DNA of 64,000 nt from Diphasiastrum complanatum (Eukaryota > Streptophyta > Lycopodiopsida > Lycopodiales > Lycopodiaceae), in contig CM055108.1 of NCBI GenBank assembly GCA_029204225.1, positions 20,591,644-20,655,643 of the forward strand. The letters are read 5' to 3'. The translations under genes and the position numbers were made by a program. Below, piece after piece: positions 6,047 through 53,734 of this stretch. Position 1 is the first letter of the stretch. Each line of letters begins with the position of its first letter. Under the pieces are notes generated by a model. It did not search any database. It was given only the letters and a program-made list of their open reading frames with translations, and had not been told where the DNA came from.

Positions 6047-6320
6047 ACTTAGAATTTGCTTGGAACAGGAACACAGATCATGCTACATAGTAACACAGAC
6101 AGAAAACACTCTCCACAACAAGCTCACATAGCAACTGTATTTCTCAAAATGAAATTATACTGTACATAAAGTTGTTCACTCAGGCAACCCATGCATGACC
6201 TAGGTTGCCGTTGGCGGGACGTGTGTCCCGTCGACTTGCCTCGTGGCAAGGCCAACTGATCTTTATCAACTGATAGGACCCACAATACAGTAGCACAATG
6301 ATTCTACTTTAATTCTAACT
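6047..6320 (-). repeat. copia 3' LTR
   Basis: 274 bp, matching 13343-13616 closely with scattered substitutions. In element orientation it starts AGTTAGAATT and ends AAATTCTAAGT. It is preceded by the purine tract aagggagag and followed by the target duplication. The ends are AG...GT rather than TG...CA. Confidence 0.88.
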
Positions 6321-32848: not shown

Positions 32849-32903
<55 letters not shown>

Positions 32904-35900
32904 CATAGGTCCCGCGGTACTGGGTACCGCGGATCCCGGTACCGCGGGACCATACTGGTACCGCGGTACCATGATGGTACCGCGGTACCACAATATAATA
33001 ATATATTTATTATTTAATATTTTTTTTAATTTTTTTTTACCTAAACCTACCCGCCCCCCTCGCATTTCCTCTGAAATTTTTTTGAGCCCTCTCCGCCCTG
33101 CCATCGCTGCTGGTTTTTCTTGCCTGCCTTTGATTCCTTGCGTCGCCCATCGCCCACGCAACGCCCTGCCTTGCATCTGATTTCCTTTGCCCTGCACTCG
33201 CCCATTTTCAGCGTCTCTCCAACAGTGAACCCTGCTGTTTTTTTTCCAGCAATCCATCCCTCATTTCATCTGCAATGGTGCAATCCGACCTTTCCGGTCT
33301 GTGGGACGAGGTAGACATTGTCAGGCGGGTTGCCGACAAGGCCAACAAGACCGGTCAGAAGATCGTGCGCTGCCGATACTGTCTCGTCGAGTTTGCTGCA
33401 TCCCTCACTCGCCTTAAAGGCCATCTGCTCGGTGCACGCGCCAAAAATGGTGCCACCTTGAATGCTGCCCCTTGTGGCAGCATGACCGTCCCCGACAGGC
33501 AGCGACTACTGGACACCTACGGGCCGCGGCTCGTGGCAGGGGAGAACACCATTTCGGAGGGCGTTCTCCGATTTTGCACCGCTCCTTATGTGACTAACCC
33601 AGAGTTGCTGCCTGCTTGGCTGGCACGCACGAGGAGAGGGAGTGCATCCTCCTCTGGTCCCTTTGCCCCTCAGACAGCTCTGCCTCATGCACCCCCATCT
33701 GCTCAGATTCCGGTGGATCCCGTCCCATCGCGTCCGACAGTTGCCACTGCGGTTCCACCACCACCCACCGTTGCTCGCACTCCACCAGTCTACGACTTTC
33801 TCATGGACTCTCCGCCACCCGAGCAGGCCCAGGATGGTACTGGGAGGATGTGGAAGAGATCCCTTCTTCCTTCCCTTCCCATCCGGATGACCTCCTCAGC
33901 CAGCAGTTTTCGTACCCCATGCCAGATGTTGCCCCTCCACCAGTGCACCCCACCTATGCTGCTGCACCCATCCCTGCCAGTGCATCCCACTCTCCCCATT
34001 CCACGTCTACAGCCGATGCATCCACCAGCGCCCAGCCTGTCGCGTCATCGTCCATTCCCGTCACGGTTGGTGCACCGTGCTGGAGGTCCACCACCCGTCG
34101 TCCACCAGGGAGAGCCCTCGTGCAGCAGACCATTCGCGGCGCGCATCAGCCGCACATGGACAGAGAGGCCACACAGGCCGTGGCCAGTCTGGTTTACGAG
34201 CTGAACCTGCCCTTTGCCATCACCGACTCTGAGCCCTTCAGAAGGGCCTTCCGCCTTGCACAGTCTGTCAGCCCTAGCTGGAGAGTCCCTAGTTCAGAGG
34301 TTGTCCGCACACACATGCTGAGGGATAGGGTCGAGTCCTTGTCTAGAGAGATGGAGCCTCTGCGTCGGCACTGGGCCACTTACGGTTGCAGCATCATGTC
34401 CGATGGCTGGACTGATGTCAGGAGGAGGCCGATCCTCAACATACTGGTCTCCAGCTGCATGGGCACACAGTTTTTGAGGGCAGTGGATTGCAGCAGGGGG
34501 GGGAGAGTCATATCTGCAGAGTTCATGTTTGATGTCATCAGGTCTTCCATCCTAGCCATAGGCCCACAGCATGTCGTCACGGTGGTGACGGACAATGCCA
34601 CGAACTGCATTCAGATGGGTGTACTGCTAGAGGCCGAGTTCCCTCATATTGTTCATACCCCCTGTGCAGCCCACGGCATAGACCTTTTGATGGGGGACAT
34701 TGGAGCACTTCCCTGGGTTAGAGCCATCGTCCGGGAGGCCCTCTTCCTGGTGACTTTTGTCACCAGAAAGAGGCGTGTTCTTGCCATGTTCCGGGTGTTT
34801 AGCCATCTGGACCTCCGTAAGCCAGCCCCCACGCGCTTTGCATTCGACTTGGTGGTCATCGACCGTTTGATCAGGTGCAGCTTCTACAGATGGTTGCCAG
34901 TGATCTTTGGGGTGCCAGTACATTTCCGCACACTGAGGATGGGGAGCACTTTTCTTCCACGGTGAGGGGAGACCAGTTCTGGAGGGATGCACAGACATTG
35001 TCAGGACTGCTTCGACCACTCTACATTGTGCTCCGCATGGCTGACAGCGAGGGGTCGACACTTGGACTGGTGTATGAGCTCATGGACCGGATTGGACAGT
35101 TCCTGCAGCTGCCCATCTTGCAGCCAGAGAGGTAAGCGGTACAGTGTTGCAATTGACCTTTATCTTTTCAGTACTTGCTAGTTTGTTTTTCTGTCAATGT
35201 TAAGCTTTTTCGTAATGCCCTAAACCACATGCCCCTCACCTGCAGGATGACAGAGCTGAAGTTCATATGGGAGACGCGATGGAACTACTTCCACAGGAGT
35301 ATCCACAGCGTTGCACACATGCTGCATCCCCTCTTCCTCTCTCCGACACAGATCGCAGACAGGGAGCTCGAGGCCGATTGGCTTCAGTACATTCACAGGG
35401 TGGGTCCACACATAGGTTTGGATCCTATCAGGCTCATGGAGGAGCTCGCTGCATTTCGTTTCGGCATGGGCACATTCGGCCACCCGGCTGCCCAGGATCC
35501 AGAGAGGAGGCAGCTACCCATTACCTGGTGGACCATGTTCGGTAGCACATACCCATCTATACAGCGTCTTGCACTGCGTGTCCTTTCTCAGGTATGCATC
35601 TCATTTTATCCTCCATTTTTTGTGTTTCGTTGAAGTTTCACCTTTGCCACAATGTGCTGAAGTATTTCAATGCACGCACCACAGGACTGTGCTGCCTCTG
35701 TGTGTGAGCGTAATTGGAGCACATGGGCACTGATTCACACGAGGAGAAGAAACCGGTTGTCAGTGAGTCAGTTGGAGCGGTTGGTGTTCTGTAGCACCAA
35801 CGCACGTCTCGCCAGGAGGCTTCCGACCATTACGAGCGCATTGCAGGTGATAAGCTAATCTTTCATAGCATGTTGGTTGACTCCTGGTATGTTGGTTTCA

Positions 35901-38900
35901 TTTCTTGAAAAAGTTGTCTCTCTGACATGCAAATTTTAAACCTTGCAGACGAAGATATCTGATTTGGAGCGCCAGGTTGACTTGCCTACGGACAGCACCC
36001 ATCCCATGCCTGCAGATGACCTGGGCACACAGTTGATGGCAGAGAGAGAGAGGGAGCTTGCCGAGATGAGAGAGAGAGAGCTTGGGCTTGAGCACAGAGA
36101 GCCCCCATTGTATGAGGCAGATGAGCCAGTGTCAGAGGATGAGCATGATGAGGATGAGCCCATTCGGGTTGTGTTTGCCAGACCAGAGAGGGATGAGGCA
36201 GATTATACAGGTGCAGGGCACACGCCACGGGCAGGGGTCACAGGTGCATCACGTGGCAGAGGTGGGACACATGGCACAGGTTATACCGGCAGACAGGCAG
36301 GGCACACAGGGGGGGGCAGTGGCATACCTACCTATGTCGACATGATGGAGGAGGCTCTTGATAGAGGGCAGAGTGGTTTAGATGCTGGTCCCGCAGATGT
36401 TTGGATGCGTGCAGCACAGAGTCATGGCCGTTACTACGACAGCACACCAGAGGAGGCACCTGATGACTTTCATTGCACAGATTGGGAGGCCATGCAGGGT
36501 CTACAGGGTGCACATGATGAGGCACGGGATGAGGCTTGGGTTGATTCAGGGGTTGGTGCACAGGATGATTCAGAGGTCGGTGCACAGGATGATTTAGAGG
36601 CTGGTGCACAGGATGAGTCCCAGAGCCCAGAGCATTTGTATTCGGATGCCCAGCTGGCCGACTTGGTTGCCACATTGGATTCAGAGGCCCAGCAGATGCC
36701 GAGTGTCAGGGCGCCCCCATCATCTCTTGCCAGCATGCCACACACAGAGTCCCAGCCAGAGCAGCCGCATGAGGTGCCTACAGTTCCTCCAGCTCCTCAG
36801 AGGGTGTATGTGGGTCGCACAGCTCCTCCAGTGCCACCGATGCCATTTAGGCCTGCATCCCCTTCATCGCCGTCCACTTCTGCAGCACCAGGTCTCCATG
36901 GCAGGCCACCATCTTCACATCCACAGTGGCTCCTCCAGTGGCAGCACCCACGTCACATCCTCCTCCTTTGGCAGCACCCAGGATGTACCAGTACCGGCCA
37001 CCACAGCGCCCCTTTCAGTACATATCGCCACTGTACTCGCCTCCTGCACAGCCAGTTCCTCCACCTGCAGCAGCCCCACGGGCACACACTCCACGAGCTC
37101 ATCCTCCTCGCTCAGTTGCACAGGGAGTTCCCTCTTTTGCTTCCCTATCCCAGCCGGCCTCAGCTTGGGCCCAGCCTAGCCAGCCAGGTGATTTGCATGG
37201 GGGTGACGAGGCATTGACAGCTCCTCTTGTCCGCAAGAGACCAGGCAGGCCCAAGGGTGCACCGAACAAGAAAGGCAAGGCACAGAAACTGCCAGGGAGG
37301 AGAGGACGACCACGCAGGGCTCCAGGTACAGGTAGAGGTGCAGTATCACAGCCAGTTGGAGCAGGTGTTGTTGGTTTGGCCTGCTTGGGGGCTGATGCGG
37401 AGGCTGATTGGGAGGATGAGGATGGCGAGTCTTCCCCCTCGGATACACAGCCCATGCCAGTTCCAGACAGGCAGAGATATCGGCTGCGAGAGTCAGCTGG
37501 GGGCCCTGAGTTGTCTCCAGAGCATTCGTCTGAGTCAGAGCCAGAGCATTGATTGTGGCTCTATTGTTTTAGTTTCAGTAGTTTGTCTCTAGCAGTCGGT
37601 CTACCATTGTACTCAGATGATTTTTCACATTATATACAGTGTTTGGCCTACATTATTTGCTGCACATTGTGCGTATGTCGCTCTGTACATGTGATGCTTT
37701 ATTTTATGTTGAAGAATTCTATGTGCGTGTGTGAATCCTATTTTCATTTAATTTCGTTTGAAGTGAATGCTAGCTTCACATATATGCACCTACATCATGA
37801 GCACAGCAATCACCCCTACACCCCAAACGACATTGAATAAACACATGTAATACATCTGCATTTAAAAAAATTACAAACATTGCATCTTACATGACCAGGC
37901 TCGCGTTGCACAAAAAACAACTATGTATATATTCAACCGTTGTATCAGGATAACATCACATATACTGTCATTTTTTTAAGCAGCCATCTAGTTATTTGCT
38001 GCACCATAAACTGCCGAAAACTACATAGCAACAGTCCGCCACATACGGGTGGACCTCATCTATTCTAAACATCCCTCACTGATCCTCCACCGACTCCTCG
38101 CCCTCGTCTGGTGCATTGTTTTGTCGCTCTTGCTCTGCCTCCCGGTTAGCCCGAGCTGCCTCCTGGTTAGCCCGACGTCTGGCCGCCCTTTCCCTGACCA
38201 TGATGAGCTGCCGTCGTGTGAAATTCATTCCGATCTGCTCATCCAGATCCAGCTCGACAGCGGGGACAGGATCCACAGCGGGGGCGGGTGGCTCCGGTTC
38301 CGGATTTCTCTGTCGAGTCTGTCGCAGCATCTCTCGGATATCTGCCTCTTGCTTCCGATGCCTCTCGTTGTGCCTTCGGATATCTTCCTCAAGCTTTCTC
38401 CTGGCTTCGCCCTCGGGCTTCGGTGGTATTCGCTCAGCCATCTCGATCGACCTTCTCCTCACAGCACCCTGATCCTTGAACACCCTCTCACAGCACCCTG
38501 GCTCTCAAACAGCCTCTCACAGCCTGTCACCGGCTCTCGCTTGCTCTCTCACTGTCTATCACTAGCCCTCTCACAGCCTCTGAAAATGCCGACCACAATG
38601 GCATTGTGAGTGCCTATTTATCCCCACAGCCTGATCGGCCATGTGGATCCCCATCATCCCTCCATGTGCCTCCGTACCTGCCCCCATGTGATGCTCCCCC
38701 CTGTGTTGGTCTCCCATTGGGCCCATGGTCTGCTCACCCACAATGCCCATGTGCCTCTGTACTTGCCCCCATGTGATGCTACCCCCCTGTGTTGGTCTCC
38801 CATTGGCCCCTCGGTCTGCTCACTCGCAGTGCCCATGTGCCATTGCAACAGTCCCCTGCATCATGTACTGTACCCTCTTTTTTTACACCCAGAACCCCCT

Positions 38901-41900
38901 CTTTTTACTTTTTTTTGTCCTTTTTTGGTAGTTAATATGCAAAAAAAAATTACTAAAAATATATTAAAAAATAAAAAAAAAATATTAAAAATGGTACCGC
39001 CCTGGTACCGCGGATCCCAGGGCGGTACCGTACCGGCGGTACCACTGATATGATCCCAGGGCGGTACCATACCAGCGGTACCAGAGGGTACTATGATATG
39101 TATACATATCATAGTACCCTCTGGTACCGCTGGTATGGTACCGCCCTGGGATCATATCAGTGGTACCGCCGGTACGGTACCGCCCTGGGATCCGCGGTAC
39201 CAGGGCGGTACCATTTTTAATATTTTTTTTTTATTTTTTAATATATTTTTAGTAATTTTTTTTTGCATATTAACTACCAAAAAAGGACAAAAAAAAGTAA
39301 AAAGAGGGGGTTCTGGGTGTAAAAAAAGAGGGTACAGTACATGATGCAGGGGACTGTTGCAATGGCACATGGGCACTGCGAGTGAGCAGACCGAGGGGCC
39401 AATGGGAGACCAACACAGGGGGGTAGCATCACATGGGGGCAAGTACAGAGGCACATGGGCATTGTGGGTGAGCAGACCATGGGCCCAATGGGAGACCAAC
39501 ACAGGGGGGAGCATCACATGGGGGCAGGTACGGAGGCACATGGAGGGATGATGGGGATCCACATGGCCGATCAGGCTGTGGGGATAAATAGGCACTCACA
39601 ATGCCATTGTGGTCGGCATTTTCAGAGGCTGTGAGAGGGCTAGTGATAGACAGTGAGAGAGCAAGCGAGAGCCGGTGACAGGCTGTGAGAGGCTGTTTGA
39701 GAGCCAGGGTGCTGTGAGAGGGTGTTCAAGGATCAGGGTGCTGTGAGGAGAAGGTCGATCGAGATGGCTGAGCGAATACCACCGAAGCCCGAGGGCGAAG
39801 CCAGGAGAAAGCTTGAGGAAGATATCCGAAGGCACAACGAGAGGCATCGGAAGCAAGAGGCAGATATCCGAGAGATGCTGCGACAGACTCGACAGAGAAA
39901 TCCGGAACCGGAGCCACCCGCCCCCGCTGTGGATCCTGTCCCCGCTGTCGAGCTGGATCTGGATGAGCAGATCGGAATGAATTTCACACGACGGCAGCTC
40001 ATCATGGTCAGGGAAAGGGCGGCCAGACGTCGGGCTAACCAGGAGGCAGCTCGGGCTAACCGGGAGGCAGAGCAAGAGCGACAAAACAATGCACCAGACG
40101 AGGGCGAGGAGTCGGTGGAGGATCAGTGAGGGATGTTTAGAATAGATGAGGTCCACCCGTATGTGGCGGACTGTTGCTATGTAGTTTTCGGCAGTTTATG
40201 GTGCAGCAAATAACTAGATGGCTGCTTAAAAAAATGACAGTATATGTGATGTTATCCTGATACAACGGTTGAATATATACATAGTTGTTTTTTGTGCAAC
40301 GCGAGCCTGGTCATGTAAGATGCAATGTTTGTAATTTTTTTAAATGCAGATGTATTACATGTGTTTATTCAATGTCGTTTGGGGTGTAGGGGTGATTGCT
40401 GTGCTCATGATGTAGGTGCATATATGTGAAGCTAGCATTCACTTCAAACGAAATTAAATGAAAATAGGATTCACACACGCACATAGAATTCTTCAACATA
40501 AAATAAAGCATCACATGTACAGAGCGACATACGCACAATGTGCAGCAAATAATGTAGGCCAAACACTGTATATAATGTGAAAAATCATCTGAGTACAATG
40601 GTAGACCGACTGCTAGAGACAAACTACTGAAACTAAAACAATAGAGCCACAATCAATGCTCTGGCTCTGACTCAGACGAATGCTCTGGAGACAACTCAGG
40701 GCCCCCAGCTGACTCTCGCAGCCGATATCTCTGCCTGTCTGGAACTGGCATGGGCTGTGTATCCGAGGGGGAAGACTCGCCATCCTCATCCTCCCAATCA
40801 GCCTCCGCATCAGCCCCCAAGCAGGCCAAACCAACAACACCTGCTCCAACTGGCTGTGATACTGCACCTCTACCTGTACCTGGAGCCCTGCGTGGTCGTC
40901 CTCTCCTCCCTGGCAGTTTCTGTGCCTTGCCTTTCTTGTTCGGTGCACCCTTGGGCCTGCCTGGTCTCTTGCGGACAAGAGGAGCTGTCAATGCCTCGTC
41001 ACCCCCATGCAAATCACCTGGCTGGCTAGGCTGGGCCCAAGCTGAGGCCGGCTGGGATAGGGAAGCAAAAGAGGGAACTCCCTGTGCAACTGAGCGAGGA
41101 GGATGAGCTCGTGGAGTGTGTGCCCGTGGGGCTGCTGCAGGTGGAGGAACTGGCTGTGCAGGAGGCGAGTACAGTGGCGATATGTACTGAAAGGGGCGCT
41201 GTGGTGGCCGGTACTGGTACATCCTGGGTGCTGCCAAAGGAGGAGGATGTGACGTGGGTGCTGCCACTGGAGGAGCCACTGTGGATGTGAAGATGGTGGC
41301 CTGCCATGGAGACCTGGTGCTGCAGAAGTGGACGGCGATGAAGGGGATGCAGGCCTAAATGGCATCGGTGGCACTGGAGGAGCTGTGCGACCCACATACA
41401 CCCTCTGAGGAGCTGGAGGAACTGTAGGCACCTCATGCGGCTGCTCTGGCTGGGACTCTGTGTGTGGCATGCTGGCAAGAGATGATGGGGGCGCCCTGAC
41501 ACTCGGCATCTGCTGGGCCTCTGAATCCAATGTGGCAACCAAGTCGGCCAGCTGGGCATCCGAATACAAATGCTCTGGGCTCTGGGACTCATCCTGTGCA
41601 CCAGCCTCTAAATCATCCTGTGCACCGACCTCTGAATCATCCTGTGCACCAACCCCTGAATCAACCCAAGCCTCATCCCGTGCCTCATCATGTGCACCCT
41701 GTAGACCCTGCATGGCCTCCCAATCTGTGCAATGAAAGTCATCAGGTGCCTCCTCTGGTGTGCTGTCGTAGTAACGGCCATGACTCTGTGCTGCACGCAT
41801 CCAAACATCTGCGGGACCAGCATCTAAACCACTCTGCCCTCTATCAAGAGCCTCCTCCATCATGTCGACATAGGTAGGTATGCCACTGCCCCCCCCTGTG

Positions 41901-44900
41901 TGCCCTGCCTGTCTGCCGGTATAACCTGTGCCATGTGTCCCACCTCTGCCACGTGATGCACCTGTGACCCCTGCCCGTGGCGTGTGCCCTGCACCTGTAT
42001 AATCTGCCTCATCCCTCTCTGGTCTGGCAAACACAACCCGAATGGGCTCATCCTCATCATGCTCATCCTCTGACACTGGCTCATCTGCCTCATACAATGG
42101 GGGCTCTCTGTGCTCAAGCCCAAGCTCTCTCTCTCTCATCTCGGCAAGCTCCCTCTCTCTCTCTGCCATCAACTGTGTGCCCAGGTCATCTGCAGGCATG
42201 GGATGGGTGCTGTCCGTAGGCAAGTCAACCTGGCGCTCCAAATCAGATATCTTCGTCTGCAAGGTTTAAAATTTGCATGTCAGAGAGACAACTTTTTCAA
42301 GAAATGAAACCAACATACCAGGAGTCAACCAACATGCTATGAAAGATTAGCTTATCACCTGCAATGCGCTCGTAATGGTCGGAAGCCTCCTGGCGAGACG
42401 TGCGTTGGTGCTACAGAACACCAACCGCTCCAACTGACTCACTGACAACCGGTTTCTTCTCCTCGTGTGAATCAGTGCCCATGTGCTCCAATTACGCTCA
42501 CACACAGAGGCAGCACAGTCCTGTGGTGCGTGCATTGAAATACTTCAGCACATTGTGGCAAAGGTGAAACTTCAACGAAACACAAAAAATGGAGGATAAA
42601 ATGAGATGCATACCTGAGAAAGGACACGCAGTGCAAGACGCTGTATAGATGGGTATGTGCTACCGAACATGGTCCACCAGGTAATGGGTAGCTGCCTCCT
42701 CTCTGGATCCTGGGCAGCCGGGTGGCCGAATGTGCCCATGCCGAAACGAAATGCAGCGAGCTCCTCCATGAGCCTGATAGGATCCAAACCTATGTGTGGA
42801 CCCACCCTGTGAATGTACTGAAGCCAATCGGCCTCGAGCTCCCTGTCTGCGATCTGTGTCGGAGAGAGGAAGAGGGGATGCAGCATGTGTGCAACGCTGT
42901 GGATACTCCTGTGGAAGTAGTTCCATCGCGTCTCCCATATGAACTTCAGCTCTGTCATCCTGCAGGTGAGGGGCATGTGGTTTAGGGCATTACGAAAAAG
43001 CTTAACATTGACAGAAAAACAAACTAGCAAGTACTGAAAAGATAAAGGTCAATTGCAACACTGTACCGCTTACCTCTCTGGCTGCAAGATGGGCAGCTGC
43101 AGGAACTGTCCAATCCGGTCCATGAGCTCATACACCAGTCCAAGTGTCGACCCCTCGCTGTCAGCCATGCGGAGCACAATGTAGAGTGGTCGAAGCAGTC
43201 CTGACAATGTCTGTGCATCCCTCCAGAACTGGTCTCCCCTCACCGTGGAAGAAAAGTGCTCCCCATCCTCAGTGTGCGGAAATGTACTGGCACCCCAAAG
43301 ATCACTGGCAACCATCTGTAGAAGCTGCACCTGATCAAACGGTCGATGACCACCAAGTCGAATGCAAAGCGCGTGGGGGCTGGCTTACGGAGGTCCAGAT
43401 GGCTAAACACCCGGAACATGGCAAGAACACGCCTCTTTCTGGTGACAAAAGTCACCAGGAAGAGGGCCTCCCGGACGATGGCTCTAACCCAGGGAAGTGC
43501 TCCAATGTCCCCCATCAAAAGGTCTATGCCGTGGGCTGCACAGGGGGTATGAACAATATGAGGGAACTCGGCCTCTAGCAGTACACCCATCTGAATGCAG
43601 TTCGTGGCATTGTCCGTCACCACCGTGACGACATGCTGTGGGCCTATGGCTAGGATGGAAGACCTGATGACATCAAACATGAACTCTGCAGATATGACTC
43701 TCCCCCCCCTGCTGCAATCCACTGCCCTCAAAAACTGTGTGCCCATGCAGCTGGAGACCAGTATGTTGAGGATCGGCCTCCTCCTGACATCAGTCCAGCC
43801 ATCGGACATGATGCTGCAACCGTAAGTGGCCCAGTGCCGACGCAGAGGCTCCATCTCTCTAGACAAGGACTCGACCCTATCCCTCAGCATGTGTGTGCGG
43901 ACAACCTCTGAACTAGGGACTCTCCAGCTAGGGCTGACAGACTGTGCAAGGCGGAAGGCCCTTCTGAAGGGCTCAGAGTCGGTGATGGCAAAGGGCAGGT
44001 TCAGCTCGTAAACCAGACTGGCCACGGCCTGTGTGGCCTCTCTGTCCATGTGCGGCTGATGCGCGCCGCGAATGGTCTGCTGCACGAGGGCTCTCCCTGG
44101 TGGACGACGGGTGGTGGACCTCCAGCACGGTGCACCAACCGTGACGGGAATGGACGATGACGCGACAGGCTGGGCGCTGGTGGATGCATCGGCTGTAGAC
44201 GTGGAATGGGGAGAGTGGGATGCACTGGCAGGGATGGGTGCAGCAGCATAGGTGGGGTGCACTGGTGGAGGGGCAACATCTGGCATGGGGTACGAAAACT
44301 GCTGGCTGAGGAGGTCATCCGGATGGGAAGGGAAGGAAGAAGGGATCTCTTCCACATCCTCCCAGTACCATCCTGGGCCTGCTCGGGTGGCGGAGAGTCC
44401 ATGAGAAAGTCGTAGACTGGTGGAGTGCGAGCAACAGTGGGTGGTGGTGGAACCGCAGTGGCAACTGTCGGACGCGATGGGACGGGATCCACCGGAATCT
44501 GAGCAGATGGGGGTGCATGAGGCAGAGCTGTCTGAGGGGCAAAGGGACCAGAGGAGGATGCACTCCCTCTCCTCGTGCGTGCCAGCCAAGCAGGCAGCAA
44601 CTCTGGGTTAGTCACATAAGGAGCGGTGCAAAATCGGAGAACGCCCTCCGAAATGGTGTTCTCCCCTGCCACGAGCCGCGGCCCGTAGGTGTCCAGTAGT
44701 CGCTGCCTGTCGGGGACGGTCATGCTGCCACAAGGGGCAGCATTCAAGGTGGCACCATTTTTGGCGCGTGCACCGAGCAGATGGCCTTTAAGGCGAGTGA
44801 GGGATGCAGCAAACTCGACGAGACAGTATCGGCAGCGCACGATCTTCTGACCGGTCTTGTTGGCCTTGTCGGCAACCCGCCTGACAATGTCTACCTCGTC

Positions 44901-47900
44901 CCACAGACCGGAAAGGTCGGATTGCACCATTGCAGATGAAATGAGGGATGGATTGCTGGAAAAAAAACAGCAGGGTTCACTGTTGGAGAGACGCTGAAAA
45001 TGGGCGAATGCAGGGCAAAGGAAATCAGATGCAAGGCAGGGCGTTGCGTGGGCGATGGGCGACGCAAGGAATCAAAGGCAGGCAAGAAAAACTAGCAGCG
45101 ATGGCAGGGCGGAGAGGGCTCAAAAAAATTTCAGAGGAAATGCGAGGGGGGCGGGTAGGTTTAGGTAAAAAAAAATTAAAAAAAATATTAAATAATAAAT
45201 ATATTATTATATTGTGGTACCGCGGTACCATCATGGTACCGCGGTACCAGTATGGTCCCGCGGTACCGGGATCCGCGGTACCCAGTACCGCGGGACCTAT
45301 GATATATGTATATACATATATATGTATATATATACATCACAGCTATTGTAATTCGCTGCAGCAAATCATCAAAATATATATTTTTTTACTTTTCGAAAAC
45401 GTTTTTGGATCTGAATTTTTTCTTATGACAGTCTGAGTTGAGAAACGTTTTGAGAATATGGAGCAAAACTTACAGTACTGATGAACACCTTAAAGGTAGC
45501 TGCTAAGATTCCTCATTTTGTGCGAATGGCATCTCACCTAACTTTTTGGAATTGGACCTGAAAATACTGGAATCGTTCGGCTAATTTTCTACTTTTTGTA
45601 GAGACATATGAGTCTTCCACACACCCACTTCCGCACATTTCTGGTTTTTAGTGGATTTCTACTCCACGACCTATGCTACAGGGCAGGATACTTCGGGCCT
45701 CTAGTGGAGTTGCATGTTTGTATAAGTCGGTGTATACTCCTATTCGGTTGACTTCTGAAAGCGAAGAAATATGGAGGTTTCCGGATGTGTGTGGATTACA
45801 AGGGCTTAAATAAGGTGATTGTCAAGAATAAACATCCGTTACCCAGGACGGACGACCTTGTAGATCGCTTGGGTGGAGCTCAGTATTTCACCAAGATAGA
45901 TCTCAGGACAGGGTACCATCAAATACAAATTCAATCGGAAGATGTCCAAAAGACATGATTTTGTTTTAGATTTGGTCATTATGGATTCTTAGTGTTGCCT
46001 TTTGGGTTAAAGAATGCTCTAGCAACATTCCTAGCAAATGATGAACGATTTATTTCATCCATATTTGGAGAAGTTTGTGGTAGTATTCCTAGATGATATC
46101 CTTGTCTACAGTAAAACCTTTAAGGAGCACATACAGCACCTGAGAATAAAGAGTCCAAGCATGAATTCTTGAAGCAAGAGATGCTTTATCTCGGTCATAA
46201 GATCACAATTAATGGGATCAAGATTGACAAGGATAAAATCAAGATTGTGATTGAGTGGCCAATTCCGGGAACTGTGAAGCAAGTTAAATCATTTTTAGGA
46301 TTTACCATTTTCTTCAGAAGATTTATTGAGGATAATGCTAAGCTAGTGTTGCACACAAGCTCACAAACCCTAAGTAAATACACAGATTTACCCAGCAAAT
46401 CCGTCACTTTATTAATCTCAAGCAAATGTACATAGATCAACAAGCAAACATGAGAGCTCTGTTGCAAGTCTCCTCCCAACATAGCTACATAGGAATACCA
46501 TAATCATAATCATAATGAGGAATGCCTGACAAGGCTCACCCTATATCCCCTCAAGCACCCCTTAACCCTGACACATCCTACGGTCGACACATGGCAAACT
46601 CCATGCACAGCCGACACTTGCCACTTGGCAGTACCCTGACAAATAGGCAAGCTAGTAGGTGGACAGTCTGAGACGTGTCACTCATGCATTATACCAAGTG
46701 TCCCAATGAGCATATGACACACGTCCTGTTGACCCATCCATTGACCGTCTGACAAGTGTCACTCATGCACTGGACCAAGTGTCCCAGTGAGCATTTGACA
46801 CGTGTCACGTTGACCAGTCAACCCTTCCTACATTTTAGGAGGTCAGTCCAGCAGACTCTTAGGAGACCCAGTACAGCCTTGGCCATCTCGGATTTAGTCA
46901 CTATAACAGATATTTACATTGCAATTTACAATTGTCTCCACAGGCTGGTGACTTAGCCATTTACAATTTAATAATTACAATTTACCATACATTGGGCAAG
47001 GGATTCTAAGTACATCTAACATCCCTTCCCTCCTCAGATGACATCGTCCTCGATGGCAAAGTTTGGATACTGTGTATGCAACCCATGCGCGGTCTCCCAG
47101 GTAGCATCACTGAGAGGTCGTTCATGCCATGCAACCAAGTACTCACGGAGCAAACAATTCCGCAACCGTCTATGCCTCCGGTCCAATACTCTCGCTGGTC
47201 CATGCATCACCTCTCCATGCTCCTGAAACAATACAAGACCATCAGCCAACAAGTTATCACCATCATGTGAAACCTTCTTTAGGCGTGAAACATGAAAAAT
47301 AGGATGAACCTTACAACCAACAGGCAAATCCAATTCATAAGCAACTCTATTAATCTTTTTAACAATTTTCCAAGGTCCATAGTATCTAGGTGACAACTTA
47401 TAACACTTCCCTGTCTTTAGGGTTTTCGAGTCCTTTTTCGATTCTCTGGTTTCTGTTGTTAAGGGTGTAGATTGGGCCTGGTAGGAGGGCGACCTACTGC
47501 CAGTTGACGGTTCGTGAAAAGCTTTTGCCGTTTGGAAGAAATTCGACGTCAAACAGCCGCTTTTTTCCTCTTTTTTTCGATTTTGAACCCGATTTGGTGC
47601 CCAAAAAAAGTTTTTTACCGACTTTTGTACTAGCATAGGACGCAAGGGAAGTACTACTTGTCCTTGGCTTTGTATTTTCCCCAGAGTTTTATTACTTTCC
47701 AGTTGCCTTTTTCTCTTTCAGTTCTAAATTGTGAATAAGCTGAAAATTTCCACATTTCCTTTTTCTGAGTGTGTTTCAATAAGTGCAATTTCTAGCTTGA
47801 TTTCATGCTGTGTCTGTTTTTGTTTCATAATGGAAGATGATAGCATTGATATTCCGCTCAGTCCACCCGTTGCTCTTCCATCACCACCACCCAGCCCTGT

Positions 47901-50900
47901 GCTTAGTCTTACCCATAATCTGCTTACAATGGCTGCTCGTTCGCCTGCTGGTACTTCCCCTTCTGTGCAAGCTTGCATGGATAGTGTGGAAAAGACTGCC
48001 GCAGGGATGCGAGCAATGATGGTAGCTGGTGGTTATGCGTCTTCTTCGCAGTATGTTCCGCCTTATCCGTCTTCTGCTGTTCGTCCTGTGTTACCTCTAC
48101 CCTATCCAGAAGACAAAGATATTAAACCTACCCGTTTCGCAAGAAACACTCCCCAATGCAATACTGATATCGTAAATCAGTGGTTGCATAAGTGGGAAGA
48201 GTATTTTGATTTGAAGCGGTCCCCAACTGATGAGGGTTGGCGGGTCCGCAAAGTTGCTTACCATTTCACTAATTTTGCTGACAGGTGGTGAAGCAAGTTG
48301 TTGAAGTCTAATCAGGCTCCGAGAAGGTGAGGGCTGTACACCAAGCCTTTGCTGAATAGAGTATTGTGGGAGTAACCATAGTATCAAAAAGTCGCATTTA
48401 CTATGAGCATCGTGAATGTACCTCCTAAAGCAAAATCTTTGCAACTGAACTAGGGAGGCCTCGAGCGGAAGTTGCATGTGCATACTGAAAATGGGGTCCC
48501 TGAAAAGCACTCCTAGATAACTATAGGATGAATCCACCTCCATAATTTGACCATGGATGTGCTGAAGACCATGATTTTGGTCTTCAGAATGTTCGCCTGC
48601 AATCCCCATCTAGTGCAAAAAGCATTTAGCCTATGAGGATGCCTCTAAAGCCCCTCTCTGGTCGGTGATATTAGAACTACATCATCGACATACAACAATA
48701 TGGCAACTACTATGTCTCTAAGGCTACAACCCAAACCACCATCACGACCAATAACTTCCTCAAGCTCATCAATATATAACCCAAATAAAGTAGGTGAAAG
48801 GGGTTCTCAACCCTGGTTTCGAAATGCTCAACTCACTCCCGGACAGAGTCAAAGGCTTTCCTGAACTACAAAACAACAGTAAACTCTCTCTCATCTGCAC
48901 TTGATTGGCTCGATAAGGAAACAAAGTCGATAATGTGATCAATAATGGAGTAATGAGCTTTGAAACCAGCTTGACCCATAGCATCCAACCCTCTTGGTCT
49001 CCGCCTTTGTACTTACTGCATCCACTTTAGAATGAAATTTATAAGCCTTCAAGAAATGAATCTTTCAAAAGAGCAAGGAACAATAAACCTCCGGCTCCAT
49101 CTTAGTATCTTGAGCCATTGTCACAACTAGCTCTGCAAAAAATATGACTAAGACCTTTTTTCAAAATGATGCATCTAGCGATTTTTCTAAGAATTCAGTT
49201 TCTCTATTCCATCTTGTTGAGGACTATAAAAGGAAGAAACCCCTTTTATAATGCTTAGCAAAACTTCCTGCCATAATTACTTGTAATTTTGAGAATTTGG
49301 CAAACCATCTCTTTGTCTACTATTGCTTTTTTAAAGCAAGCACGGTTTCCGTTTCATCTTTACTGAGAGAATCTGGTTCATTGCCATGTACCTCTACAAA
49401 AAAAATGTTTGAGCTTTTTAATAAGAATCTTGCACATGGGCTACAATGATGAACTTCCATGCAAAAAAGAGGGCCATCTTCTGACTATGTTGCACGTTTC
49501 TTTCATGTCGATCTCTTCAAAAGGGCCATAAGATATCATAAGTCCTTCAACATGCTACATAAACTTGCATGTTTCTACACTAAATTGCATTAGGTATTTT
49601 ATTTAAAGAAAACTCTAAGAATCATTTTCTCACACTTCAAGGCAATAAAGCTTCATTGGAATTGCAGGTTTTGGAAAAGTTCCCACAACTTAGTGGCTAT
49701 GAAGCATTTCGAATCCCTCAAAGTTTTGATCCTAAAGCACTTGTCACATATCAACTAGCTGTTTCAGCAACCGATGGTAAGCTACTTCTCACCAATTCAG
49801 TTTTATCAAGAATTTTTTCTTGAGCTATCTAAAGAATAGCTTGTAGAAAAAGAAGGTCATTCTTTGAGATACATGTATGTTTGTTTGGATGCTTATGTTG
49901 GGTTGTGGTTAACAACTCGTTGTTGGGATTTATCATTAACGGGCATATTTTGATGTATCATTACCCACTTAGGAAATCCATTCAAACATTTGGAATCTTT
50001 TTTCAGATGTTTGAAACGAATCCTTCACATTCATTTAGAATCTTGAAAACGTTCAATTGCTAACATGCATTTGCTTTCCTAGTAAGAAAAACATTGACCT
50101 CAATTTTTGAGAAAATAGAAGACAATGAATTTGTGAACCTGCTGAAAAAATGCATATGGCTATCCTTCAACAGAAGGCATACACCTCTTTTCCTCTCCTC
50201 GAGGTCCAGAGGTTGATTCCGCTCAACTGTACAATTGACTTTTTTTTTTTTCAGGTCAAATAAATGCATATGCTAAAGAAGATGAAGAAAATCATATATG
50301 CTTAATAATATGCTGCACAAGTGTCTAATTTGGAGAAGATACTAGGAAAATGTTTATTTCGAAGATGCCTCACGAAATTGGGGGGGGGGGCATGATAGCC
50401 CTGGCTATTTTGCTAGCCGCAACTCTACTTTAGGAACAATATTTCCTTTGCTAGTTTTTTGCCCTATGTTATTCATAGATGATCCATGCTTAGGAGTTTT
50501 GTAATGTTGTTGGGATTTATCATTAACGGGCATATTTTGATGTATCATTATGAATTATTTTGGAATTTGACCCACTTAGGAAATCCATTCAAATATTTGG
50601 AATCTTTTTGCAGATGTTTGAAACGAATCCCTCACATTCATTTAGAATCTTGAAAACGTTCAATTGCTAATATGCATTTGCTTTCCTAGTAAGAAAAACA
50701 TTGTCCTTAATTTTTGAGAAAATAGAAGACAATGAATATGAAGAACCTGCTGAAAAATTCATATGCCTATCCTTCAACAGAAGGCATACACCTCTTTTCC
50801 TCTCCTCGAGGTCCAGACGTTGATTCCGCTCAACTGTACAATTGTTTTTTTTTTCAGGTCAAATAAATGCATATGCTAAAGAAGATGAAGAAAATCATAT

Positions 50901-53734
50901 ATGCTTAATAATATGCTGCACAAGTGTCTAATTTGGAGAAGATACTAGGAAAATGTTTATTTCAAAGATGGCTCACAAAATGTCGATGCCTTAGAAGAAT
51001 TTGCTAAAATGGATGAAGCGAAGGAGATGTTTGAAAGTAGGCCATGTGTGCTGAAGACAAAGGAACAATAAGATCAACGTATTCATTCTTTGACATAGAA
51101 GTGACTCAGATTTGTTAAGAAAATTAAGTCGGGGAGATGTGGATTCGCATCACAAGGGACCCGAATATGTATCAAGGGTGTTTTCTTGAAGGTTGTAGGA
51201 AATCAAAGTGCCAAGATCCTTCTAACATTCAATCTCCATATACAAGAAGAAGAAAAAGAGGAAGAGGGAGAGGGTTAGGCGCCCTCAAGGAGAGAGAAAG
51301 TAGTAGCAGTGCTTGAAAGGGAATGAATTACAAATGAACACTGGGTACATATAAATAGACCTTCCAAGGGCCTAGACTATTCCTAACTCTAAGTTCTAGA
51401 ACCTTCCAAGACCCACTACTAATTATAAGGCACCCCCAAAAGTCAAGATAGGGTCTCTTAACATAATTAGACTTTACTTGGACCCACGAATTACTACTGG
51501 ACCAAAATTGGGTCCAACTCAACTAAAACTGACTTAACATGGTCTAAATAATAAACCTAACCCATGGTTACACAAGTCTCGACCTTTTGGGTCAAAGTAA
51601 CCTATGAGAAACTATCATTATCATTTATTACTTCTAACAAAGGTAAGATCCAAAATAGATAAGGAAGCTGAATGAATCTCTCATTTTTGGACAATGGCTT
51701 TTGCTTCAAGAAATGGAAAGATCATGTAGCAACTTGAGCTGCTCTTGATACTTTCTTGATAAGTCATTGAAATCCCTATGTCTTACTTAGTACTTTTCCA
51801 ATTCAAATGTTTATGCATATATCTTCAACCAAAGTATTCTGTTTGTTGATCCTCCAACAAGTGCAAGAACGACTTTCATGTGCATTGCTACCATATGATT
51901 GTATGAAAGTATATCCTGTCTTACAAAACTAAATCTCTAGCTAATTATTACTCATAAAATATTCAGTTGTCCCTTGTCCTTGAAGTTGTGGACTTGAGAG
52001 ATCTTGCTTTCTATGATGTCAAGTTGGAGCAGTAACATGAAAATCAAATGGTTTCTAAGAACTTGATGCAGAGTCAGTAACTAAGACTCCTGTTGCTGTG
52101 AAATTATCTTACACGATTTTATCTGGAATTCACACTTGTAGTAGGCAAGAACAATGTCTGTTATAAAGCATCACACAAGCAATGTTGGACAAAAAACAAA
52201 TGATCATATTACAATCTCCAACCAAGATCAATATACAATCTACATTAAGCTAAGGATATGCACACTTTCACACACACTCCTGTATAGGTACGTGTGTGCC
52301 TTCGTGAGATTCCAATTTCAAACAATGACATTTTTGAAACAATGGTTTAAGTGGATTTGAGATATCAAATATATTAGCTTTAAGCCCCTCTCTAGCGGAA
52401 AAGGATCAGTACATAATGCCACACAATGAGTATGTGCCTATGTGTCCATGATGCGTGGTGAGGAGACTCGTTTTGAGTAGGGACGAATCTACCCCTATGT
52501 AGTTGGGTTTGCCAGTTTTGTGCTGGTTGCGCTTATTTTGTCATGAGCCACTAGCCATTCTTGAGGAACATGATCTCTGAGGTTCAAAGATTTATATTGC
52601 AATTCTTGCTACTGGTTTTACAGTTAGCGAGGGCTCATGTCACGTTCATGACTTTTTGCCATTGTCAGTGATGGAGTTATGTAGTATTTAAAGGACGAGT
52701 TTTGATTTCCAACGAGAACATTAGCTTTAGGATAGTTTATGTTGCACTGGTGGTTGACAAAATTACTTGAAAGCAGGCTAATAATAATCTCTGCTGTTGC
52801 AGAGTCGAAAGCTCCCTTAGATGCTACGGGGATACAACTTCAGGGGGTTCTTGATGATCTTTTTGCATATGACGGTCCTCTTGGCCCAACCTTTTCAGAT
52901 GAGGAGGTGTTTCTTCATTTATGGGCTCCTACTGCTCAAGTATGTACTCTATGTGGCTTGAAACTTATCTTACTTGTCCGTCAAGTTATATATAAAATAT
53001 GAATTTTAGAGGAGTAATGGAGGCTTAACTGCCAGAAGTAGATGATGGAAGATGCTCACAAATAATAATCTCTGAAGTTTTTATATCCTTCCTTCATACA
53101 AGATAAGTAGATATTTTCAATCGAGTCATGATGAAATTTTTGCTCATTGCTAAGCAATATGCCATTTATACTTCATATGCAGAATGTCCGCGCTCTTCTT
53201 TACTCAGAGCCTCAAGCTGGAGATCCTGAACAAGTACTGCAACTTGAAGAGAAAAATGGTGTTTGGTTCACCCAAGGATCAAAAGAATGGCTTGGGAAAT
53301 ACTACCTCTATGAGGTCACTGTCTTCCATCCCTCTACTTTACGAATTGAGACTTCTCTTGCAAATGATCCATATTCACGAGGGTATGATGTGCTGTCCTA
53401 TTTATGAATGTTTCTCCATTTGTCTCAGATTGATATGCCTGTATGAAGCTCATCAAATGAAAAGATTGTACTTCAGATTGAAATTTTCAGTATTGACTTG
53501 TCGAGGTGTATCAATCAGAAGTTAGCTGTTTTGATTGCACCAATGTGCTTTATATTTAAAAAATTAGGGATGTTCTTTACACAGGCTTTCTGCAAATGGA
53601 GAACGGTCGTTAATTGTGGAATTGAGTGAACTTTCTCTCAAGCCAGAAGACTGGGATTCTCTACATACCGAGAAACCAACGCTTGTTTCGCACAATGATA
53701 TAGCTATATATGAGCTACATGTCAGGGATTTCAG
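28054..53734 (+). CDS. PU1: Pullulanase-type starch debranching enzyme (limit dextrinase), exons 1-9, 3' partial
   Basis: Plant limit dextrinase hydrolyses alpha-1,6 branch points of starch-derived dextrins in the plastid. Joining exons 28054-28355, 29702-29876, 30078-30182, 32001-32136, 32386-32438, 49668-49776, 52803-52939, 53183-53382 and 53585-53734 gives one open frame of about 455 residues with matching phases at every junction. Order: a Ser/Arg-rich transit peptide (about residues 1-90), the N-terminal domain (IHYHR then [11 protein letters not shown]), [13 protein letters not shown], a CBM48-like segment ([27 protein letters not shown]) and the entry to the GH13 barrel (IYELHVRDF). 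The family is about 900-960 residues, so roughly half is present. The catalytic acids lie in later exons, not in this window. No stop or frameshift is seen. Introns range from about 200 bp to 17.2 kb; the large ones are filled with transposons. Confidence 0.9.
29310..29690. repeat. Two short tandem duplications in PU1 intron 1
   Basis: A unit of about 50 bp with tacaactgacactggaaga and agggcctgaaact occurs twice (about 29300-29400). A second, looser pair with agtgaatacttg, tatcag and ttgtgaaaca lies at 29550-29690. Confidence 0.6.
29702..29876 (+). CDS. PU1: PU1 exon 2 (N-terminal domain)
   Basis: Acceptor ttctgtag at 29701, donor AAAA|GTTTGT. Encodes [20 protein letters not shown] and [11 protein letters not shown], then LNFMIHQGD. 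This is the carbohydrate-binding N-domain signature of pullulanase-type enzymes. It completes the split Arg codon from exon 1. Confidence 0.9.
30078..30182 (+). CDS. PU1: PU1 exon 3
   Basis: Acceptor gccacag, donor ATG|GTAACA; 35 codons in phase 0. IVWVVQD matches the strand that ends the N-domain in plant limit dextrinases. Confidence 0.8.
30183..32000 (+). other. PU1 intron 3
   Basis: 1.8 kb without a gene I can support. A short frame at 31049-31231 has an Asp-rich stretch, and a CTTT-type microsatellite lies at 31556-31611. Confidence 0.6.
31556..31611. repeat. (CTTT)n microsatellite
   Basis: About 56 bp of CTTT units with a few CTAT variants. Confidence 0.9.
32001..32136 (+). CDS. PU1: PU1 exon 4
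   Basis: Acceptor catttctag, donor GAAG|GTTTGT. Encodes [17 protein letters not shown] and [16 protein letters not shown], the conserved linker domain that starts the body of the enzyme. Confidence 0.88.
32386..32438 (+). CDS. PU1: PU1 exon 5, followed by a GC donor
   Basis: Acceptor cttgtag. Encodes [17 protein letters not shown]. The only donor that keeps the frame and joins to LEKFPQ in the next exon is GAG|GCAAGT, a match to the GC-AG minor class of U2 introns. Confidence 0.85.
32848..32899. repeat. (CT)n(TA)n microsatellite at the left edge of the palindrome
   Basis: CT repeats pass directly into TA repeats that abut the left transposon end. The right flank (45305-45340) is also TA/TG-rich, so the insertion point was a simple-sequence tract. 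Confidence 0.9.
32896..32903. repeat. 8-bp target duplication of left hAT copy
   Basis: ATATGTAT directly before the left terminus (CATAG at 32904). The same 8 bp follow the other terminus at 39096-39103. Eight bp is the hAT-specific duplication length. A third ATATGTAT lies at 45304-45311, two bases beyond the right copy. Confidence 0.8.
32904..32993. promoter_or_regulatory. hAT 5' terminal region with six GGTACC motifs
   Basis: GGTACC occurs six times in about 85 bp, mostly as GGTACCGCGGTACC doublets, next to CATAGGTCCC. Subterminal repeats of this kind bind transposase in characterised hAT elements (for example AAACGG in maize Ac); binding here is inference. Mirror copy at 45212-45301. 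Confidence 0.75.
33275..37552 (+). pseudogene. hAT transposase gene, left copy, frame-broken
   Basis: Four exons: 33275-35131, 35246-35591, 35685-35846 and 35949-37552, with GT-AG junctions in matching phase. Exon 1 starts with a BED-type zinc finger (C33, C36, H50). It continues with a Pro/Ser-rich stretch and the DUF659 core ([42 protein letters not shown]). Exons 2-3 carry [15 protein letters not shown], then the hAT C-terminal dimerisation motif ([39 protein letters not shown]). Exon 4 is long, acidic and Pro-rich and ends with two AT-hook-like motifs ([24 protein letters not shown]). Three minus-one frame changes are needed, near 33835, 34868 and 36918, all identical in the other copy. 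Small unrecognised introns could explain some; otherwise the protein is not made intact. Confidence 0.85.
38076..38441 (-). CDS. Small charged protein encoded by left hAT copy
   Basis: 121 residues from the ATG at 38441. The start is [20 protein letters not shown], followed by a predicted Arg/Glu-rich helix or coiled coil ([20 protein letters not shown]), a Pro/acidic linker ([20 protein letters not shown]) and a second Arg/Ala helix ([20 protein letters not shown]), ending acidic. The frame is intact, opposes the transposase, and lies about 650 bp inside the 3' terminus. A TATA-like ggataaatag lies about 175 bp upstream of the start. I do not recognise the family. Most characterised hAT elements have only one gene. 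A non-coding role cannot be excluded. Confidence 0.55.
   Translation of the reverse strand: MAERIPPKPEGEARRKLEEDIRRHNERHRKQEADIREMLRQTRQRNPEPEPPAPAVDPVPAVELDLDEQIGMNFTRRQLIMVRERAARRRANQEAARANREAEQERQNNAPDEGEESVEDQ
38995..39095. promoter_or_regulatory. hAT 3' terminal region with six GGTACC motifs
   Basis: Six GGTACC motifs spaced irregularly, two next to a GGATCCCAGGGC or GATCCCAGGGC phrase. The terminus is GGGTACTATG. Mirror copy at 39110-39210. Confidence 0.75.
39764..40129 (+). CDS. Small charged protein encoded by right hAT copy
   Basis: Exact mirror of the 121-residue ORF at 38076-38441, with no amino-acid difference. The two copies are divergent, each reading away from the palindrome centre, with the TATA-like motif near 39580 on this side. 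Confidence 0.55.
   Translation: MAERIPPKPEGEARRKLEEDIRRHNERHRKQEADIREMLRQTRQRNPEPEPPAPAVDPVPAVELDLDEQIGMNFTRRQLIMVRERAARRRANQEAARANREAEQERQNNAPDEGEESVEDQ
40653..44930 (-). pseudogene. hAT transposase gene, right copy, frame-broken
   Basis: Mirror of the left gene: exons 44930-43074, 42959-42614, 42520-42359 and 42256-40653. The same three frame changes are present, so the damage predates the duplication. One substitution at 44436 is silent in the transposase frame. The two transposase genes are transcribed towards the palindrome centre, that is, convergently. Confidence 0.85.
45305..45769. other. No gene seen
   Basis: TA/TG-rich at the left edge, then AT-rich sequence without recognisable features up to the gypsy RT remnant. 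Confidence 0.5.
45770..46346 (+). pseudogene. Ty3/gypsy reverse transcriptase remnant
   Basis: Across several frames: [50 protein letters not shown] and [16 protein letters not shown], then in another frame [20 protein letters not shown] and [20 protein letters not shown]. Stops and a deletion remove the catalytic YVDD region. The sequence stops at an LTR edge (46347), so a second element landed in it. Confidence 0.8.
46347..47021 (-). repeat. 3' LTR of a second gypsy element
   Basis: 675 bp with TG...CA ends. In element sense it starts TGTTAGATG directly after the purine tract gaggagggaaggga and ends GTGTGCAACA. It lies at the 3' end of the integrase fragment described next. The 5' LTR is absent. 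Confidence 0.7.
47034..47420 (-). pseudogene. gypsy integrase C-terminus with chromodomain-like tail
   Basis: The - strand frame holds [31 protein letters not shown], then a chromodomain-like end ([20 protein letters not shown]) and a stop just before the LTR. Upstream of about 47420 the frame stays open by chance through unrelated sequence. The rest of pol is missing. Confidence 0.75.
47830..48291 (+). CDS. gag-like ORF of a gypsy element, truncated
   Basis: The Met at 47830 begins [12 protein letters not shown], followed by a Pro-rich segment ([14 protein letters not shown]), a disordered Ser/Tyr stretch and the gag core start ([33 protein letters not shown]) before a stop. The capsid core is cut off. 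It is on the opposite strand to the neighbouring integrase fragment, so the two are not one element in its original order. Confidence 0.6.
   Translation: MEDDSIDIPLSPPVALPSPPPSPVLSLTHNLLTMAARSPAGTSPSVQACMDSVEKTAAGMRAMMVAGGYASSSQYVPPYPSSAVRPVLPLPYPEDKDIKPTRFARNTPQCNTDIVNQWLHKWEEYFDLKRSPTDEGWRVRKVAYHFTNFADRW
48300..49060 (-). pseudogene. LINE reverse transcriptase remnant
   Basis: Reading right to left across frames: [53 protein letters not shown] and [20 protein letters not shown]. These are successive blocks of a non-LTR retrotransposon RT, including the catalytic YVDD. Stops and frameshifts are frequent. No endonuclease part or poly-A tail is seen. Confidence 0.75.
49668..49776 (+). CDS. 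PU1: PU1 exon 6
   Basis: Acceptor aattgcag, donor GATG|GTAAGC. Encodes [18 protein letters not shown] and [10 protein letters not shown]. It follows exon 5 directly in homologous proteins, which proves that the 17.2 kb between them is one intron. Confidence 0.9.
49918..50975. repeat. Direct duplication of about 460 bp in PU1 intron 6
   Basis: The text from gttgttgggatttatcatta (first copy at about 49918) to gatactaggaaaatg and the following ttatttc is repeated from about 50505. The copies differ by substitutions and by a 25-bp insertion (about 50549-50573). About 130 bp of other sequence lies between them. Confidence 0.85.
51194..51639 (-). mobile_element. Solo copia LTR with target duplication
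   Basis: Diverged relative of the LTRs at 58175 and 63380, in reverse. It starts TGTAGGAAA and ends TTCTAACA, and the shared phrases include cacccccaaaagtcaaga, accaaaattgggtcca and tcgaccttttgggtcaaagt. Both sides carry AAGGT (51189-51193 and 51640-51644), so it is the scar of a complete insertion that lost its interior by LTR-LTR recombination. Confidence 0.9.
52803..52939 (+). CDS. PU1: PU1 exon 7 (CBM48 start)
   Basis: Acceptor gctgttgcag, donor CTCAA|GTATGT. Encodes [20 protein letters not shown] and [12 protein letters not shown], the start of the CBM48-like domain. Confidence 0.92.
53183..53382 (+). CDS. PU1: PU1 exon 8 (CBM48)
   Basis: Acceptor catatgcag, donor GAGG|GTATGA. Encodes [30 protein letters not shown] and [20 protein letters not shown], the rest of the CBM48-like domain. 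Confidence 0.92.
53585..53734 (+). CDS. PU1: PU1 exon 9 (entry of GH13 domain)
   Basis: Acceptor ttacacag, donor TCAG|GTCTCT. Encodes [16 protein letters not shown] and [12 protein letters not shown], the first beta strand of the GH13 barrel. No later exon was found between here and 64000. Confidence 0.9.

Follow-up and report, generated by a model that had tools for sequence, protein, structure and literature searches.

A near-perfect 12.4-kb palindrome of two tail-to-tail hAT elements in the lycophyte Diphasiastrum complanatum

Two hAT elements joined at their tails

The window, i.e. the whole stretch of 64,000 nucleotides from Diphasiastrum complanatum contig CM055108.1 that was analyzed here, contains an inverted repeat of 12.4 kb in total with arms at 32901-39102 and 39103-45304. 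When each base i across 32901..39102 is paired with base 78205-i, three mismatches (33112/45093, 33197/45008 and 33769/44436) and no indels are encountered in 6202 pairs, which agrees in full with an earlier note on this DNA that had claimed arms of 6202 bp, a coordinate sum of 78205 and three substitutions. A repeat search of the window recovered this inverted repeat, its arms directly abutting (0 nt in between), and ungapped extension of this repeat reaches 6232 nt by entering the AT flanks.

Each arm harbors one hAT element of 6192 bp. The first, T1 (32904..39095, + strand), has the head CATAGGTCCC and the tail GGGTACTATG and was delimited by arm pairing and by family copies with the same ends. 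The second, T2 (39110..45301, - strand), was delimited by arm pairing as its inverted copy, the three substitutions being the sole differences. Between the two tails lies a 14-bp AT spacer (ATATGTATACATAT, 39096..39109) that forms the palindromic centre, such that the term "spacerless" used in the earlier note is correct for the palindrome but not for the transposons. The terminal inverted repeat is perfect over 5 bp only (CATAG/CTATG) and is followed by GGTACC motifs common to both ends, six in a subterminal cluster at the head (32923..32989) and six further ones at the tail (38993-39082), which are candidates for transposase-binding repeats.

The transposase gene of T1 (33275..37552, + strand; mirrored at 40653-44930, - strand; start codon and introns judged by eye) comprises a DUF659 exon, a hAT dimerisation domain spanning an intron and a long C-terminal part. 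PF04937 (DUF659), presumably a mark of plant hATs, matches the element's transposase with 140 bits (E 6e-41) and the open frame of family copy L011 with 138 bits. PF05699 (hAT dimerisation) reaches 38.1 bits against a cutoff of 21.4 with two exons spliced at sites chosen by eye, and the unspliced exon alone stays under that cutoff at 18.5 bits. BED zinc fingers are common in the hAT superfamily, albeit not universal; the N-terminal piece gave no Pfam match, and the 672-aa frame of L011 gave none apart from DUF659. The superfamily traits present, a DUF659-type core, a C-terminal dimerisation domain and the 8-bp target-site duplication (TSD) of the family, bear out the identification as two hAT elements arranged tail to tail. 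Near its tail, T1 contains a second ORF (121 aa) that runs convergently (38079..38441, - strand; mirrored at 39764-40126, + strand) and shares 87% identity with an annotated protein of D. complanatum. Both ends are present in T1 and T2, but the transposase frame is disrupted at three places in each, and the elements are "complete" in the former sense only.

T1 resides in an (AT)n target tract (32869..32903), preceded by a (CT)n run, that carries the sole pure AT run of at least 12 bp in the window. Its TSD ATATGTAT (outer copy 32896..32903, inner copy 39096-39103) matches in 8/8 positions, which is weak by itself in so AT-rich a tract; family copy L042 has this 8-mer as its TSD, too. On the other side, an AT-rich tract (45302..45337) adjoins T2. 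No exact 8-bp TSD was found for T2 at its flanks, as is also the case for 3 of 33 other family copies. The first 10 bp of the right tract are identical to 32894-32903 and the palindrome is thus bounded by a 10-bp direct repeat. We considered that the whole palindrome is mobile as one unit, as prompted by this repeat, and do not favor it because AT tracts readily give 10-bp matches. A simple assembly fold-back that mirrors one flank is dismissed, as the outer flanks of T1 and T2 differ in sequence and the locus is embedded in a contig of 49.6 Mb.

Insertion into AT microsatellites as a family habit

Of the 33 sampled copies for which both flanks were read, 29 have AT runs of at least 8 bp on both sides. 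In 11 of 36 flank entries, a same-type end lies within 90 bp, in all orientations (6 tandem, 5 head-head and 2 tail-tail, some entries being counted in two classes), and in 16 of 36 when related ends are counted too; these numbers count ends within 90 bp, with a minority of the neighbors read at full length. Copy L039 has a tail-tail neighbor 14 bp away, and at both L039 and L041 genuine tails of the element meet across an AT spacer, as in the centre of the palindrome. At 12.73 Mb of C3, a full-length copy is situated head to head with L038, C18 contains a tandem pair that is 99.8% alike across 3.5 kb, and the arms of a tail-tail pair in C535 differ by 28 substitutions. The neighbors of L064 and L067 align to T1 only piecewise at about 86-94%, and separate insertions therefore do stack. 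Eight copies have flanking 8-mers that are not both pure AT repeat; five of them match in 8/8 positions (L015, L019, L027, L041 and L042) and three do not (L018, L032 and L043), indicating a family TSD of 8 bp. As the sampled copies show, this young, high-copy hAT family of D. complanatum inserts mainly in (AT)n microsatellites, which is why it stacks up there in every orientation. No relatives turned up when viral contigs were scanned.

These observations bear on the claim that a palindrome of this kind must be very young or protected. Its rarity is tempered because the sampled copies repeatedly have inverted neighbors, and once the family habit accounts for the arrangement, the special feature of the locus is the identity of its arms. 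The family habit also renders superfluous a fold-back duplication, in which a break to the right of T1 would have exposed a short AT palindrome and allowed the end to fold back, copy T1 in inverted orientation and join the right flank via AT microhomology. Such an event is very improbable here, even though the palindromic centre begins with the TSD of T1, the right tract contains 16-bp palindromes, the 10-bp direct repeat bounds the pair and there is a precedent in yeast, where according to excerpts of PMC10622511 breaks near short inverted repeats give fold-back duplications that are stabilised at dispersed repeats. Chance palindromes abound in tracts of this type (among windows of 14 bp, 18 of 22 on the left and 3 of 23 on the right), and the different outer haplotype of T2, described below, would require a further exchange.

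Differences between the arms and shared deletions

The differences between T1 and T2 are unevenly distributed. All of them reside in the outermost 866 of 6192 bp (33112..33769 and, for their partners, 44436 to 45093), with a simulated chance of 0.0028 for such placement at the outer end and 0.0055 for either end; the tightness of the cluster alone has a simulated chance of 0.031. Across element positions 867-6192, the inner 5.3 kb, no difference exists, compared to two in the next closest of 231 copy pairs and a median of 21. Identity in positions 941-2500 says little, since this part hardly varies in the family. The identical inner part fits recent copying or homogenisation. It is also conceivable, if unlikely, that two distinct elements were merged during assembly, the inner 5.3 kb being one consensus written twice and the flank-anchored ends keeping their differences. 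The clustering of the differences beside unique flanks is as expected from anchored reads, and an artefact-like fold-back does occur in the assembly: in C2463, close to the end of a contig of 50.5 kb, a head-head junction falls within the element. The palindrome, however, is interior to its large contig with different flanks, its junction joins genuine tails across an AT spacer, just like those of L039 and L041, and the arms in C535 were kept distinct.

As stated in the earlier note, all three differences are transitions (left/right letters in element orientation G/A, C/T and C/T) and two of them lie in CG or CHG context (the G in CHG as read from the other strand, the two Cs in CHH and CG). 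Deamination in the right copy, also put forward there, is in line with the change at element position 209, which is private to T2 when compared to 20 other copies, but not with the remaining two: T occurs at position 294 in 11 and at position 866 in 17 of 20 other copies, and both are therefore family polymorphisms. Three deaminations in T2 as the sole source of the mismatches are disfavored for this reason. The chance that two of three random transitions hit alleles carried by at least three of 20 copies is 2e-4 and rises to 0.018 if tenfold hot spots are allowed for. Over positions 1-940, T1 has no substitution relative to L009 and T2 has one relative to L015 and L021; trees agree with separate outer haplotypes at modest support. 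Mosaic copies are a general feature of the family, as seen in subfamily L025-L028, which has about 58 differences from the rest in the first 500 bp and less than 1% between 501 and 6000.

T1 and T2 share three deletions that break the transposase frame, of 10 bp (33843..33844), 7 bp (34877/34878) and 25 bp (36914/36915). The first two are absent in all 20 other copies and the third in 19 of 20, with L019 having a large deletion that covers the place. The common private deletions and substitutions are what one would expect if one of the two elements were the daughter of the other. It would have been produced either by sister-chromatid transposition or by Ac-like local transposition during replication, in which an element inserts in inverted orientation into the AT tract beside it, and the differences would be later mutations. 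The closely similar tandem pair in C18 also speaks for such an event. Nevertheless, we consider it rather unlikely, because two of the three differences are family polymorphisms, all three are at the outer end, T2 is without a clean TSD and the broken transposase in both copies means that the enzyme would have to be supplied in trans.

Origin and possible significance of the palindrome

Our best explanation, at close to an even chance, is that two insertions into one AT tract were followed by copying of one arm onto the other. Based on the family habit, a single AT tract would have received two copies, their tails facing each other at a distance of about 14 bp, resulting in an inverted pair. 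The mosaic suggests that the sequence of one arm, including its three private deletions, then replaced that of the other across the inner 5.3 kb or more, with break repair or gene conversion from the centre outward as a possible mechanism, and that the outer 0.9 kb of each element kept its own family haplotype. The near-perfect palindrome would then have resulted incidentally from microsatellite targeting combined with copying between the arms. The restriction of the mismatches to the outer 866 bp, the different outer haplotypes and the identical inner part speak in favor of arm copying. Against it stand the missing exact TSD of T2 and the fact that the private deletions are accounted for just as simply if one copy descends directly from its partner. 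In addition, the mosaic depends on two sites, one of which is a CG with plausible repeated deamination, and the outer ends of the tail-tail pair in C535 are not enriched in differences, as 4 of its 28 substitutions fall in the first 940 bp and 20 lie beyond 4000.

With its preference for AT microsatellites and its stacking of whole copies in opposite directions, a coding transposon such as this one provides a simple and testable origin for large plant palindromes. If arm-to-arm copying is true, the inverted pairs (the palindrome, C535 and C3:12.73 Mb) would be natural replicates for studying palindrome survival, conversion and decay in a plant nucleus and would allow asking whether palindromes feed small-RNA silencing of their own family. 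One may speculate, with considerable doubt, that the hAT acts as a palindrome generator: inverted pairs in AT tracts would have their arms kept identical by centre-out conversion as in sex-chromosome palindromes, and read-through from the two outer heads would yield a long transposase hairpin RNA that silences the family, so that this lycophyte would possess a natural hAT equivalent of Mu killer.

Comparison with known systems

In the titles and abstracts listed by searches for hAT and palindromes, hAT and TA-repeat preference, microsatellite targeting and lycophyte genomes, which cover few subscription papers, neither this locus nor any coding hAT with such a habit is reported. The following comparisons draw on excerpts of the papers cited. 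Mu killer of maize likewise carries a transposase gene in an inverted duplication and is the proposed source of a hairpin RNA silencing its family; it is, however, a partial Mutator duplication, whereas here whole hAT elements are joined at their tails (PMC3440606). Hydra hATm-3 is a hAT for which a TATATATA TSD is shown as an example, and clustering or palindromes are not described in the passages considered (PMC8721813). Alternative and sister-chromatid transposition of Ac/Ds show that hATs can yield inverted duplications and composite insertions, but T2 is without the TSD signature of such transposition and the outer haplotypes of T1 and T2 differ (PMC8225341). A resemblance in habit is found in the microsatellite-targeting arrays formed by SaTar MULEs of guayule and rice (PMC5907723) and by Ac-mMITEs of pineapple (PMC8449440), with which our family shares (TA)n flanks, adjacent non-nested clusters and a normal TSD for copies outside microsatellites. 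Such arrays are known for short, non-autonomous Mutator-like elements with TSDs of 9-11 bp, whereas here a full-length coding hAT family with an 8-bp TSD does likewise, and its clusters become multi-kb inverted pairs because the element itself is 6.2 kb long.

Structure of the palindrome and its junctions

The palindrome described in the earlier note was borne out, with three mismatches and no indels over 6202 bp of arm and an axis at 39102/39103. Transposon T1 proper occupies positions 32904-39095 and transposon T2, its inverted copy, positions 39110-45301, with ATATGTATACATAT as the sequence between them. T1 is bordered by identical 8 bp on either side (ATATGTAT), the 8-bp flanks of T2 are unequal (ATACATAT vs ATATATGT), and a 10-bp direct repeat brackets the pair. 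Such flank matches weigh little because AT-rich tracts yield them easily; perfect palindromes make up 3 of 23 14-bp windows in the right tract and 18 of 22 in the left. Just one pure AT run of at least 12 bp is present in the 64-kb window, and it adjoins T1. The window also features a perfect 64-bp tandem duplication adjoining copia-type polyprotein frames (62315-62442), a direct repeat whose copies are spaced about 605 bp apart, with blocks 95-98% alike (49963-50981), and a 346-bp inverted repeat, 94% alike, with its halves about 59 kb apart (602-947 and 59880-60225).

Arm identity and origin of the palindrome

The genome (1.745 Gb, 5176 contigs; the window is C17:20591644-20655643) was searched for further copies. 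As 40 of 3057 first-look candidates were scored, yielding at least 42 matches, the copy numbers given here are minimum values, and the sample is biased to close relatives. It comprises 20 copies and both ends of 16 more, giving 36 flank entries, 33 of them with both flanks. Among the 20 copies, L019 is internally deleted, the head of L018 is degraded, and an inverted pair on contig C535 has L020 and L024 as its arms, both without tail ends.

No two of the 22 aligned copies are closer than T1 and T2 (three substitutions, no indels); the copy next closest to T1, L011, differs from it by 11 substitutions and five indel events. T1 and T2 have three deletions in common, of 10 bp after element position 940, 7 bp after 1974 and 25 bp after 4011. 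None of the 20 other copies has either of the first two, and 19 of them are also without the third, whose place in L019 is taken up by a larger deletion; match lengths suggest that the other copies among the matches listed are likewise without the first two together. All three T1/T2 differences lie within the outer 866 bp of the element. The change at position 209 is private to T2, while positions 294 (9 C vs 11 T in the other copies) and 866 (3 C vs 17 T) are family polymorphisms. Over element positions 1-940, T1 shows no substitution against L009 and T2 a single one against L015 and L021; trees of the outer and inner parts agree with these affinities at modest support. The subfamily L025-L028 carries about 58 substitutions in positions 1-500 and is near-identical elsewhere, so that its head appears to be a 5' end exchanged between copies.

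The best explanation, which we hold tentatively at somewhat under even chances, is that two insertions entered one AT tract and that sequence was then copied between the arms. Repair would begin at an extruding or breaking centre and a conversion tract would run from there outward; identity inside and differences outside would follow, matching the T1/T2 pattern. Assembly collapse of the inner sequence predicts the same outer clustering of differences and is considered less likely. That one copy descends directly from the other, likewise a less likely reading, would account for the common deletions as well as arm-to-arm copying does, but two mutations must then hit family alleles by chance (p 2e-4, or 0.018 if such sites are tenfold more mutable).

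L020 and L024 (C535:29252-41927) make up another tail-to-tail near-palindrome, some 12.4 kb long. Its arms are 28 substitutions and seven indel places apart, and at its centre both tails are lost by a deletion reaching into the subterminal repeats. Of the 28 substitutions, 4 fall within the first 940 bp and 20 beyond 4000, so that the outer ends show no excess of mismatches and centre-out conversion at C535 gains no support. Element positions 941-2500 are, moreover, near-invariant across the family. This pair and the near-invariant stretch weaken the conversion argument and tilt the balance slightly towards direct descent. A head-to-head fold-back inside the element (L045, C2463:48250-48950), lying close to one end of a 50.5-kb contig, is probably an assembly artefact.

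Coding capacity

The transposase is of the DUF659 type by domain match, and the hAT dimerisation domain is clear once the exons are spliced (38.1 bits vs a cutoff of 21.4). A convergent second ORF of 121 aa (38079-38441, minus strand; mirrored at 39764-40126, plus strand) has one database relative, an annotated Diphasiastrum complanatum protein with 87% identity for which no Pfam match was found. Of the 20 other copies, 18 have an open frame of 672 codons (L023 and L024: 668 and 667 codons) and 16 have another of 545 codons; neither frame is open in T1 or T2, since the 10-, 7- and 25-bp deletions break the frame. Two annotated D. complanatum proteins (P0007, P0010) combine a piece resembling the transposase with other Pfam domains, PF01323 and PF20408, reflecting either capture or annotation error.

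AT-tract targeting and neighbouring copies

AT runs of at least 8 bp occur on both sides of 29 of the 33 sampled copies with both flanks. The exceptions are L018, L032, L015 and L027, the latter two residing in ordinary DNA with perfect 8-bp TSDs. A same-type end lies within 90 bp in 11 of the 36 flank entries and related ends in five more, a tally in which L031 and L032 adjoin each other and from which the C535 arms and one unrelated-looking CATAG behind L018 were left out. All kinds of neighbour orientation are present. Among the fetched partners, the full-length L072 (98.4% like T1) is the head-to-head neighbour of L038, and L070, which has an internal deletion and is about 95% alike, is the tail-to-tail neighbour of L041; L071 contains another copy with an internal deletion (about 99%), at a distance of some 540 bp from L042; L064 and L067 match T1 piecewise (about 86-94%), L069 matches in a short terminal stretch, and for L068 no match to T1 was found. 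A tandem pair on contig C18 is 99.8% alike across 3.5 kb. L066 (C18:45562061-45568500) is rearranged: it has an internal deletion and, directly behind the tail, a piece of the head in inverse orientation (99.5% over 931 bp), and a tandem partner adjoins it. AT targeting, side-by-side stacking, inverted pairs and mosaic copies are established for the sample, and given the AT-flank habit and the neighbours of sampled copies, this hAT family can be expected to give rise to tail-to-tail pairs separated by a short AT spacer.

Comparison with known systems

In the largely open-access literature on hAT palindromes, TA-repeat/microsatellite targeting and lycophyte genomes, we came across no account of such arrays formed by a full-length coding hAT. 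Arrays formed by microsatellite targeting are described for SaTar MULEs (PMC5907723) and for pineapple Ac-mMITEs, where clusters take in 46.1% of the full-length copies (PMC8449440). By analogy with Mu killer (PMC3440606), it is conceivable that the palindrome could act in silencing.
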